Assembly (NCBI RefSeq): GCF_000334455.1 | Contig: NZ_BANX01000020.1 | Coordinates: 62,001-126,000, forward strand | DNA: 64,000 nt | Direction of reading: 5' to 3' | From: Gordonia soli NBRC 108243 | Lineage (GTDB): Bacteria > Actinomycetota > Actinomycetes > Mycobacteriales > Mycobacteriaceae | Shown here: positions 32,672-35,842 of the stretch, one piece after another | Layout of the letters: each line of letters opens with the position of its first letter | Position numbering within the stretch: the first letter of the stretch is position 1 | The notes under the pieces: generated by a model | Database searches by the model: none | Told to the model about the DNA's origin: nothing | Seen by the model: the letters and a program-made list of their open reading frames with translations, nothing else | Program-made: the position numbers and the translations under genes

Positions 32672-33583
32672 ATGCATACGCGACCTCAACAGGCTTGGGC
32701 CCCGGCCGAACCAACTCCCATCGACGATGACCTCGCCGAGCAGTTCACCCGCATGCGGGCGCTGCTCGGCGAGCGTCGTCTGGTGGCCCTGACCGGCGCG
32801 GGTATCTCGACCGATTCCGGAATCCCGGACTACCGCAGCCCCGGCGCCCCGGTCCGTACGCCGATGACCCTGGAGATGTTCCTCTCCTCCCCGGACTTCC
32901 GCCGGCACTACTGGGCGCGCAACCACCTCGGCTGGCGCCACATGGACGCCGCACGGCCCAACGACGCACATCGTGCGCTCACCGCACTGCAGCGCGAGGG
33001 ACGTCTGCTGTCGGTCATCACCCAGAACGTGGACATGCTCCACACCAAGGCCGGAACCCGTCGGGTCAACGAGCTGCACGGCTGCTATGGGCGGGTGCGA
33101 TGCCTGTCGTGCGACTGGCGGATCTCCCGACATCGCCTGGCCGAACTCCTGGACGACCTGAATCCGGGATTCGCCGAGCGCGTGCGCGGCGCCGGAGCCA
33201 TCGAGGTCGCACCCGACGCCGACGCGATCTTGTCCGACACGGCCGACTTCCGGATGATCGACTGCCCGGATTGCGGCGGGATCGTCAAACCCGACATCGT
33301 GTACTTCGGCGAGTCGGTCCCGAGACATCGTGTGGCAGAGGCGTACTCGATGGTCGAGGAGGCCGAGGCACTACTGGTGGTCGGTTCGTCGCTGAGCGTG
33401 ATGTCCGGGCTCCGGTTCGTCCGGCACGCGCACCGCATCGGCACGCCGGTCGTCATCGTCAACCGCGGCATTACCCGCGGCGACGACCGTGCGACGTTGA
33501 AGGTGGATCACCTGGCCGGGGTCGTACTGCCGATGCTGGCCGATTCGATCGGCAAGGGCGTCAGCTCGGCACTCGCGCACTGA
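32672..33583 (+). CDS. NAD-dependent protein deacetylase (sirtuin)
   Basis: 303 residues. ATG 32672 with GGAGGGG upstream. NAD-binding GAGISTDSGIPDYRSPGAP, TQNVDMLHTKAGT, catalytic His in VNELHGCYG, and zinc ligands in RCLSCDW and DCPDCGGIVKPDIVYFGE; then VVGSSLSVMSGLRFV. Class II/U bacterial sirtuins are 240-300 residues, so this is at the long end. It starts 39 bp after ectC and may share the ectoine transcript. Its 3' end overlaps the convergent methyltransferase gene by 23 bp. Confidence 0.9.
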   Translation: MHTRPQQAWAPAEPTPIDDDLAEQFTRMRALLGERRLVALTGAGISTDSGIPDYRSPGAPVRTPMTLEMFLSSPDFRRHYWARNHLGWRHMDAARPNDAHRALTALQREGRLLSVITQNVDMLHTKAGTRRVNELHGCYGRVRCLSCDWRISRHRLAELLDDLNPGFAERVRGAGAIEVAPDADAILSDTADFRMIDCPDCGGIVKPDIVYFGESVPRHRVAEAYSMVEEAEALLVVGSSLSVMSGLRFVRHAHRIGTPVVIVNRGITRGDDRATLKVDHLAGVVLPMLADSIGKGVSSALAH

Positions 33584-34136
33584 ACCGGAGCGCTCCCGGG
33601 GTCGTGTCGACCGAGACGTCGGTGAACCCGGCCTCGCTCAGACGGTCCGGCAGCGTGGCAGGCGGCATGGGGTTGTAGGTGTCCCCGATGTGCATCGCCG
33701 CGAACGGGAGCGTCGGCGAACCGTCGCCGCCGACGAAGACACCACCCGGTTCGAGCACGCGGAACGCCTCGGCGAACAGCGCATCCTGCAGCGCCGGGGT
33801 CGGCACGTGATGAAGCATCGCCATCGACACGACCGAGGAGAACCCGCGCGATGCCAGGCCGGTGTCGGTGCCGTCCCCCTCGATGACCCGGACACCGCCC
33901 GTGGAGGCGAAGCGTTTGCGCAGATGGTCGGCGTAGTCGGGATCGATCTCGACGGCGGTGACAGAACCTGCCCGCTCGTTGAGGTAATCGGTGTTGGCCC
34001 CGAATCCCGGACCGATCTCCACCGTCGAACGGCCCAGGTCTGCGTCGCCGAGCGCCCATGGGAGGAGCACCCGACGACTGAAGACCGACCACCCGGCCGA
34101 GCGGCAGCACCACTTGTGGAGCAGGTTCATCGACAT
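33561..34136 (-). CDS. SAM-dependent class I methyltransferase
   Basis: 191 residues from ATG 34136 (MSMNLLHKWCCRSAGW). Motif I is STVEIGPGFGANTDYLNERA, then VTAVEIDPDYADHLRKRF, and AMLHHVPTPALQDALFAEAF with VLEPGGVFVGGD, the UbiE/Methyltransf_11 layout. Substrate unknown. The open frame extends upstream into the repeat region (to 34262), but that part is not conserved in appearance. An iron-box-like dyad abuts the start, and the 21-bp repeat array lies further upstream. Confidence 0.8.
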   Translation of the reverse strand: MSMNLLHKWCCRSAGWSVFSRRVLLPWALGDADLGRSTVEIGPGFGANTDYLNERAGSVTAVEIDPDYADHLRKRFASTGGVRVIEGDGTDTGLASRGFSSVVSMAMLHHVPTPALQDALFAEAFRVLEPGGVFVGGDGSPTLPFAAMHIGDTYNPMPPATLPDRLSEAGFTDVSVDTTPGALRFSARVPS

Positions 34137-34140
34137 GGAC

Positions 34141-34159
34141 TTAGGGTAACCTAACCAGT
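34141..34159 (-). promoter_or_regulatory. IdeR/DtxR-like iron box candidate at methyltransferase start
   Basis: TTAGGGTAACCTAACC on the plus strand fits 13 of the first 16 positions of the 19-bp actinobacterial iron-box consensus; the last three positions do not match. It ends 5 bp before the methyltransferase ATG, where a bound repressor would block initiation. Suggestive only. Confidence 0.35.
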
Positions 34160-34215
34160 CGGTGCTGTGCACCGTGCCACCTTGTCGGGGGACATTCTGG
34201 TGGTGCCCCGTCTCC

Positions 34216-34413
34216 GTCGACCGTGCGCTCGAAAACGTCGACCGTGCGCGCGAAAACGTCAATCGTGCGCCTCATTCCGTCCACCGTGCAGGCTCCTCCG
34301 TTGACCGTGCGCCCGAATTCGTCCATCGTGCGCGCGGCCGCACCGTCGACGCACTCCAGCGCACGATCGACGCATGCGAGTGCACGATCGACGTTCCCGA
34401 GCGCACGGTCGAC
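34216..34413. repeat. repeat block A: 6 forward and 4 inverted copies of a 13-bp core, 21-bp step
   Basis: Core GTCGACCGTGCGC. Forward copies start at 34216, 34237, 34258, 34279, 34300 and 34321; inverted copies occupy 34338-34350, 34359-34371, 34380-34392 and 34401-34413. Steps within each arm are exactly 21 bp. Each inverted copy is the mirror of a forward one about the single axis 34335.5. The core varies mainly at position 3 (C/T) and position 6 (C/T); the 8-nt spacers vary freely, with CGAAAAC twice and CGAATTC once. Confidence 0.9.
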
Positions 34414-34596
34414 GAGGTGTGGCGCGACCGGGTAATGTTGTCGGGCAATCAGATTCATGCACAGCGTTCAGTCACCCATCAACGGCCCACCACGACCGCA
34501 CACCAACAACCGCCACCACCCCGACCGCGCACTCACACGCGCCCGACCACCTGACCCGGAGTGAACCGACATTCCCGAGCGAAAGCGAGAGAACGC

Positions 34597-34701
34597 GTCG
34601 ACCGTGCGCGGCAGAACGTCGACCGTGCATACGCTGCCGGCAATTCGCCGATCAGGGGTCGTTGTGGACGCACGATGAACGATTTCCAGCGCACGGTCAA
34701 C
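34597..34701. repeat. repeat block B: 2 forward and 2 inverted copies of the same core
   Basis: Forward copies at 34597-34609 and 34618-34630, inverted copies at 34668-34680 and 34689-34701, again in 21-bp steps and mirrored about 34649. The inner inverted copy (ACGCACGATGAAC) is the most divergent. It begins 183 bp after block A and ends 25 bp before the proB stop. Confidence 0.85.
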
Positions 34702-34726
34702 GCTGGCGCGGCGGGAGTTCGCCGCT

Positions 34727-35842
34727 TCAGACGGTGACGAGATCGTCGGCGTGGATCACCGGGCGCCGGAGGTCGGCCGGCAGGTCGGAGGTCGACCGCC
34801 CGACCATCGAGCGGACGTCGTCGGCCTCGTAGGCCACGACGCCGCGCGCATGGACCCGACCGTCGGCATCGACCACCTCGACCACGTCGCCGTCGAAGAA
34901 CCGACCGTCGACACCGATCACGCCGGCGGCCAGCAACGAGCGTCGGCGACGGGCCACCGCGTCGACGGCACCGGCGTCGAGCACGATGCGCCCTCGCGCA
35001 TCGGCCGCGTGACGCACCCAGAATCGTCGCGCGGAGAGCCGCTCGGATCTGGCCGCGAAGACGGTGCCGACCGCGGCCGCGGTGAGTGCCTGCGCCGCGT
35101 CAGAGGCTGCGGCCAGCAGGACCGGTACGCCGGCATCCGCCGACAGTCGGGCGGCGGCGAGCTTGGAGGCCATCCCCCCGGTGCCCAGCGCTCCCCCCGA
35201 GCCGGCGATCACGCCGTCGAGGTCCTCCGGCCCCGCGACCTCCGGGATGAGTCGGGCCGGACGTCCATCGGGGCCCGGGCGGCGCGGATCGCCGTCGTAG
35301 AGTCCGTCGACGTCCGACAACAACACGAGTGCGTCCGCCCCGGCGAGGTGGGCGACGAGCGCCGCGAGTCGGTCGTTGTCACCGAACCGGATCTCGGTGG
35401 TCGCCACCGTGTCGTTCTCGTTGACCACTGCCACCGCACCGAGCGATCGCAGACGGTCGAGTGTCCGTTGCGCATTGGCGTGATGCGCACGATTCGAGAT
35501 GTCGTCGGCCGTGAGCAGCACCTGCCCGACGGTCCGTCCGTACCGCGCGAACGACGTGCCCCAGGCGTGCGCCAACGCCAGCTGCCCGACACTCGCCGCG
35601 GCCTGCTTGGTCGCCAGATCCACCGGACGCTTCTTCAGCCCGAGCGGCGCGATGCCCGCACCGATCGCACCGGATGACACCACGATGACATCCGTCCCGG
35701 CACGCATCCGAGCCTCGAGGGCATCGGCCAGTCGATCGAGACGGCCGGTGTCGAGGCCGTCGGCCAGGTCGGTCAGAGCCGACGACCCGATCTTGACGAC
35801 GATGCTGCGTGCGCCCGCGATTCGCTCGCGGACATCGCTCAC
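34727..35842 (-). CDS. proB: glutamate 5-kinase
   Basis: 371 residues. First step of proline synthesis. Kinase motifs [57 protein letters not shown], and [20 protein letters not shown]. The C-terminal PUA domain (~285-365) has [20 protein letters not shown]. It overlaps obgE by 4 bases. Proline and ectoine are both compatible solutes, and the two pathways are neighbours here. Confidence 0.95.

Follow-up and report, generated by a model that had tools for sequence, protein, structure and literature searches.

Transcription can be blocked by DNA-bound proteins at dedicated sites; at phage stoperators, an immunity repressor halts elongation. Cluster A mycobacteriophages carry stoperators, asymmetric intergenic sites of ~13 bp that are present in many copies per genome and are described for the L5 repressor and in the TipsytheTRex structure (PMC9283540). 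Stoperator orientation is reported to follow transcription, and reversal of a site to abolish the block (PMC9283540). Roadblocks in general can depend on direction (PMC10310618). Two other systems are relevant: the REP and BIME elements, which are extragenic, occur in many copies and often lie between convergent genes (PMC1525189), and the clustered TTF-I sites behind mammalian rDNA, which specify termination by a bound protein (PMC3772059).

Here, we describe a family of repeats in Gordonia and Williamsia. Whereas stoperators are dispersed one by one across a phage genome, the Gordonia units form tandem chromosomal arrays. No paper describing these repeats was found in the literature searched, in which subscription journals are little covered.

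The array locus behind proB

The window is the whole stretch of 64,000 nucleotides analysed here, taken from the genome of Gordonia soli NBRC 108243. An earlier note on this DNA had reported 14 copies of a 13-bp core in two nested dyads, and all of these were re-found. Block A comprises six forward cores (at 34216, 34237, 34258, 34279, 34300 and 34321) and four inverted cores (34338, 34359, 34380 and 34401), whilst block B comprises two forward cores (34597 and 34618) and two inverted ones (34668 and 34689). All steps within an arm are 21 bp, and the symmetry axes calculated from the core coordinates lie at 34335.5 (block A) and 34649.0 (block B). Two of the 14 copies, at 34279 and 34668, are degenerate, with three or four differences from the core given in the earlier note, and both are omitted from a listing of core matches in the window at two mismatches. 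With up to two mismatches allowed, the single 13-mer is weakly above chance (27 matches in the window, against a shuffle mean of 16.1 and a largest shuffle value of 25). The features of the locus are as follows:

33561..34172, minus strand: methyltransferase gene on the other side of the arrays (start codon uncertain)
34216..34333, plus strand: block A forward arm, six units at a 21-bp step
34338..34413, minus strand: block A inverted arm, four units
34474..34564, plus strand: DUF222-gene relic comprising the final ~30 codons, reading SPINGPPRPHTNNRHHPDRALTRARPPDPE, with its stop at 34562-34564
34597..34630, plus strand: forward arm of block B with two units, located 32 bp after the relic stop
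34668..34701, minus strand: block B inverted arm, two units, in sense orientation 26 bp behind the proB stop; register 10 of 21
34727..35842, minus strand: proB-like gene with AA_kinase and PUA domains, with the inverted arms at its 3' end

The DUF222-gene relic separates the two blocks. Over 78 bp, its DNA is ~87% identical to the 3' ends of the DUF222 genes at two other loci (L021 and L027), the assignment to this family (PF02720) having been demonstrated on a paralogue at L013. Since the arms of block B sit behind the relic stop and the proB stop, this block amounts to an ordinary convergent dyad that has lost its left gene. No sense stop precedes the block A forward arm today. The gap between the block A arms is 17 bp by 13-mer starts, or 19 by the 11-mer measure used below, and falls in one of two preferred registers. 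By eye, positions 34706-34723, which separate the proB stop from the arm of block B, hold a 6-bp stem-loop that lacks a T run.

A phage or plasmid origin of the window arrays was considered and rejected for want of matches: positions 34150-34760 have none among 50,697 phage records and positions 34140-34730 have none in plasmids.

A genome-wide family of 21-bp units

The window is one of many places in the G. soli genome where such units are found. A search with a two-unit pattern, allowing up to three mismatches, identified 281 pairs of units at a 21-bp step (121 forward and 160 reverse); the reversed motif gave none on either strand. Runs of two to seven or more units recur in 35 stretches, namely the window and 34 others fetched around listed matches; wherever runs of both orientations are near one another in these stretches, their arms face each other. 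In 400 kb of contig C50 chosen blind to arrays, three of whose array sites are also in the 35-stretch sample, a 13-bp weight matrix yielded 17 runs and 143 matches, compared with 8 matches when the sequence was reversed.

The core common to the versions found in different species is GYYGAYYGTGC, with every species having its own variant (here and below, the genera g10 and g18 are regarded as Williamsia and the genome G006 as G. araii, since named records of these taxa agree with them in array counts or sequences). Taking the commonest base at each position, the 21-mer versions are:

G. soli: GTCGACCGTGCGCTCGAAACC
G049: GCCGATCGTGCGCAGTTTCGC
G. araii: GCCGACCGTGCCCAGTTTCCC
G. lacunae: GTCGACTGTGCGTCGGTTTCC
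g18: GCCGACCGTGCAGTAGATCCC

The logo of the unit is asymmetric, the core being kept and the spacer being lost except for an AT-rich middle and the last C. Among neighbour distances of 11-45 bp, the 21-bp step accounts for 194 of 247 in G. soli, 86 of 104 in G049, 80 of 99 in G. araii and 94 of 111 in Williamsia; 22-bp steps are also present in G. araii (seven) and Williamsia (ten). Neighbouring units agree at 0.89-0.95 of core positions and 0.62-0.75 of spacer positions, a contrast that is inflated because the units were detected by their core but whose direction is real. The earlier note held that the spacers had diverged while the cores were kept and that the arrays were not a tandem duplication. 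The cores are indeed the better conserved part, but the spacers have not diverged freely: their similarity is 0.657 between neighbours in one arm and 0.518 between different loci. Tandem duplication thus contributes to the arrays, and its dismissal went too far.

Taxonomic range and turnover

The earlier note would have counted absence of the arrays from all near relatives against its reading. Instead, the arrays are frequent in Williamsia and in 21 of the 59 Gordonia genomes (G. soli included), which have at least 15 pairs each, the other 38 having nine or fewer. In g10, seven of nine genomes have at least 26 pairs, and in g18 three of eight have at least 10. Across 301 genomes of the family, no genus besides Gordonia, g10 and g18 exceeds five pairs, and across 148 genomes of the class, with no Williamsia among them, no genome outside Gordonia has more than four. 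Among the matches listed from other phyla and from viral contigs, those inspected resemble coding or unrelated repeats and were set aside. An apparent third lineage, from a record titled Kitasatospora arboriphila NRRL B-24581 (L050, L098), was also discarded: its array counts equal those of G158 (g10) and it seems to be Williamsia.

Arrays turn over rapidly between species. G049 and G013 are close sisters, with flank identity of ~91-97%. For 11 of the 13 G049 sites tried, both flanks were found in the examined G013 stretches, and at ten of these G013 has no array and retains no more than one core in each arm; at the remaining site (L216), both carry the same pair of degenerate units. In 400 kb of G013 there are 16 intergenic single cores, ten of them in sense orientation behind a stop; the reversed motif gave one. 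Joint gain or loss across the chromosome would suggest a trans-acting factor. The array behind proB is found in none of 29 other Gordonia (720 bp searched). Within the first 320 bp of another gene end, arrays are seen in four of 30 species (G049, G041, G034 and G047), in differing versions, and different tandem repeats are seen in G022, G055, G038 and G026. In species that lack these arrays, tandem repeats of other length also stand at the corresponding gene ends (L205, L291, L293, L296 and L294).

Genes found near the arrays

Fast turnover between G049 and G013, sharing of species versions by unlinked loci, copying of longer array-bearing segments within a genome and the presence, at a shared gene end, of different tandem repeats in other species are all features that a selfish dispersed repeat could display. 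Such a repeat, resembling REP/BIME, would spread itself and accumulate at gene ends as harmless sites, with no role in termination. The genes close to the arrays provide further support. All six DUF222 gene calls, which form one paralogue group at five loci (L013, L021, L023, L027 and L041, the last being the same place as C50), lie within 400 bp of arrays, compared with 92 of 916 sampled genes, and several of these loci share longer flanking sequence together with the arrays. In three species, a DUF559/MTES_1575-type nuclease gene is located between a forward and an inverted arm, with differing neighbours (L038:7596-8669, L339:3269-3835 and L340:4488-4934). The palindromic mobile element suggested by the earlier note finds some backing here, in that block B, together with the sequence on its left, has related copies behind DUF222 genes at other places in the genome; this does not extend to block A.

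Other observations do not favour a selfish repeat. DUF222 counts, which are lower bounds, track array counts only weakly across the 59 genomes (Spearman 0.27, p=0.04), and the array-poor genomes G009 and G048 have at least 31 and at least 28 DUF222 genes, respectively. The DUF559-type genes are likewise present in array-poor genomes. The Y1-type (RAYT-type) transposase (PF01797) is missing from all 59 Gordonia genomes, whereas five of 14 control genomes were positive. Two candidates were rejected on these grounds: nucleases of the DUF222 and DUF559 types as the protein responsible, since their gene counts track the arrays poorly, and a REP/RAYT system, given the absence of the transposase. The nuclease genes of both types between the arms may be passengers or drivers of spread. 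No candidate binding protein was found, the Y1 transposase, DUF222 and DUF559-type families failing to explain the pattern. A selfish repeat also predicts neither the orientation of the units with the gene nor the rotational phasing of the arms described below, and we regard it as an unlikely, if serious, contender.

Position and orientation at gene ends

Gene positions were taken from a simple hexamer gene finder, with starts and a few small genes being uncertain. In the 35 array-centred G. soli stretches, window included, 41 of 56 noncoding runs lie in sense orientation behind a stop codon (expected fraction ~0.45), 28 of the 41 being within 30 bp of it; the other 15 have no preceding sense stop. 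Five of the 61 G. soli runs are inside gene calls and were dropped from this count, such that the description of the arrays as noncoding in the earlier note is correct for most runs but not for these. At L010:7992-8067, four in-frame units are found inside a large gene that is arabinosyltransferase-like by eye, 21 bp preserving the reading frame.

The same arrangement is seen in the other samples. In the array-blind 400 kb, 13 of 17 runs follow a sense stop (p=0.011), as do 32 of 34 noncoding runs in G049 (three inside gene calls dropped), 22 of 24 in Williamsia, 10 of 15 in G. araii and 22 of 28 in g18. For G047, G022, G038 and G046 the figure is 16 of 23 (three inside gene calls dropped), with seven lacking a sense stop; at 70% sense, this falls just under the pre-set 'more than 70%'. 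These sets overlap in part, as g18 includes W. deligens and G022 overlaps G. lacunae. The orientation of the unit with the ending gene, the genome-wide family and the species-specific versions all go beyond the earlier note.

Arrays are extragenic and enriched between convergent genes. Arrays occupy 10 of the 228 intergenic spaces of at least 40 bp that the 400 kb contains: five of 41 convergent gaps, compared with five of 187 others (three of 92 and one of 39 co-directional gaps, and one of 56 divergent gaps). Both strands are used about equally. Dyads arise because convergent genes each bring one arm, and the small number of gaps with arrays indicates that this is no general terminator. At two loci (L029:7994-8048 and L091:1421-1494), a hairpin and T run resembling an intrinsic terminator can be seen by eye between the stop and the array.

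Rotational phasing of facing arms

Pairs of arms face each other in 88 cases and stand back-to-back in two (raw counts). The distance between facing arms was measured from the last forward to the first inverted 11-mer start, and 46 of the 88 dyads were kept by a redundancy filter under which no two central segments have a 14-mer in common. For these 46 strict nonredundant dyads, a Rayleigh test at 10.5 bp gives R=0.70 and p=1.8e-10, compared with R=0.21 and p=0.14 at 21 bp and R=0.27 and p=0.03 at 7 bp. Periods of 21/k are favoured beforehand, 10.5 being a harmonic, because the steps are 21 bp. The informative result is the restriction to two registers, one helical turn apart, with the others nearly absent: the distances fall at about 7-11 and 16-20 of the 21-bp unit, half a unit apart. 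Of the 46 dyads, 37 lie no more than 2 bp from the mean phase (chance expectation 17.5, the phase coming from the same data) and nine are off phase. All 14 G049 dyads of up to 130 bp are in the two registers, their distances being 19, 29, 29, 29, 29, 30, 39, 39, 40, 40, 50, 50, 51 and 60; one wider pair, of 620 bp, is outside the 130-bp limit. With the registers set in advance, a later sample yielded two dyads only (20 and 41), both inside. The window dyads also fit, with distances of 19 (block A) and 52 (block B) and registers of 19 and 10, respectively.

At core position 6, facing arms tend to have opposite C/T in 18 G. soli dyads (r=-0.71, P=0.0007, six positions tested); this opposition is absent in G049 (r=0.22).

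RNA structure and composition

Complementarity between facing arms does not exceed that of shuffled arms, either in 18 G. soli dyads (core 0.844 versus 0.859, spacer 0.442 versus 0.466) or in 12 G049 dyads (core 0.807 versus 0.813, spacer 0.558 versus 0.569). When single arms were folded, eight of ten were no more stable than shuffles and two were more stable (z -3.17 and -2.25). The G+C-rich hairpin and U-run of intrinsic terminators are not common to the arrays. Taken together with the phasing of the dyads, the complementarity and folding results do not support the long RNA hairpin that the earlier note had entertained, which was rejected; nor do the many sites with one arm only.

An element acting in RNA behind the stop codon need not be a long hairpin: it could be a Rho loading site, a stabiliser or a hairpin terminator. 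This would suit the sense orientation directly behind stops, the excess of C over G on the sense strand in seven of seven sets (C 0.32-0.45, G 0.23-0.31) and the two arms that fold better than shuffles. The C excess is small in G. soli, however (0.35 versus 0.31 for G), the remaining arms and the lack of pairing between arms speak against it, Rfam has no match up to E=1 within window positions 33500-35500, and rotational phasing is a property of the duplex. An RNA-level element is thus very unlikely.

The combination of rotational phase, lack of arm complementarity and eight of ten arms folding like shuffles indicates that the constraint acts on duplex DNA. This is equally what might be expected of a topological or chromosome-organising site, where a nucleoid protein or topoisomerase would act as convergent transcription piles up supercoils, and the preference for convergent gene ends and the near-equal use of the strands fit as well. 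Such a site would not require an asymmetric unit oriented with transcription, though, and the patchy distribution (21 of 59 species) implies that the arrays are dispensable; we consider this explanation improbable.

A possible polar roadblock

The earlier suggestion of a binding array for a cooperative protein has gained support from the rotational phasing and from the asymmetric conserved core. A protein on duplex DNA fits the core, the two-turn spacing, the sense arms, their phase and the lack of shared RNA structure, and we are fairly confident that a protein does act on duplex DNA at the units. Each 21-bp unit would be one asymmetric site, with the core GYYGAYYGTGC, for a sequence-specific DNA-binding protein, and the sites would be stacked every two helical turns behind stop codons, pointing with transcription. 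Because the sites recur every two turns, all copies in one arm would lie on the same face of the DNA, and because facing arms are at a fixed rotational phase, the bound rows could touch or form one filament.

RNA polymerase would meet the bound complex from a defined side, and the putative roadblock or insulator would prevent read-through past the gene end, whether into an opposing gene or into the one that follows. Whether the complex stops transcription is a matter on which the evidence leaves us evenly divided. The same balance applies to our preferred reading as a whole, in which the arrays are tandem sites for an asymmetric DNA-binding protein that serve as a polar roadblock or insulator in the manner of stoperators: it may well be right, and may just as well be wrong. 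More tentatively, and with doubt somewhat outweighing belief, the arrays could constitute a chromosomal stoperator system, with a dedicated DNA-binding terminator protein forming a rotationally registered, two-sided roadblock on tandem sites two turns apart behind selected genes, and a recognition sequence that drifts by species along with the protein.

If true, bacteria outside the phage world would possess chromosome-wide, factor-dependent and direction-specific transcription barriers, and the rotational phasing of such barriers could be read directly from sequence. Sister species that differ in the presence of arrays offer a natural experiment.

Comparison with known systems

The arrays share with intrinsic terminators a position behind the stop but have no shared hairpin or U-run, and some of them follow such a terminator (by eye). 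They resemble the TTF-I clusters in being homotypic clusters of sites behind a transcription unit. TTF-I, however, belongs to a eukaryotic Pol I system, and the shared SalI-type GTCGAC is taken as a coincidence. With REP and BIME elements, the arrays have in common that they are extragenic, multicopy and frequent between convergent genes; unlike them, the Gordonia unit is non-palindromic and has no consistent fold, and the genus sample has no Y1 transposase.

The differences from stoperators are several. The Gordonia and Williamsia sites are chromosomal, are in tandem at an exact 21-bp step, lie behind stops and have facing arms in phase. Their sequence is different, and no repressor was found for them. 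In their basic design, nevertheless, the two are alike: the Gordonia sites are asymmetric, ~13 bp long, many per genome, intergenic and oriented with transcription.
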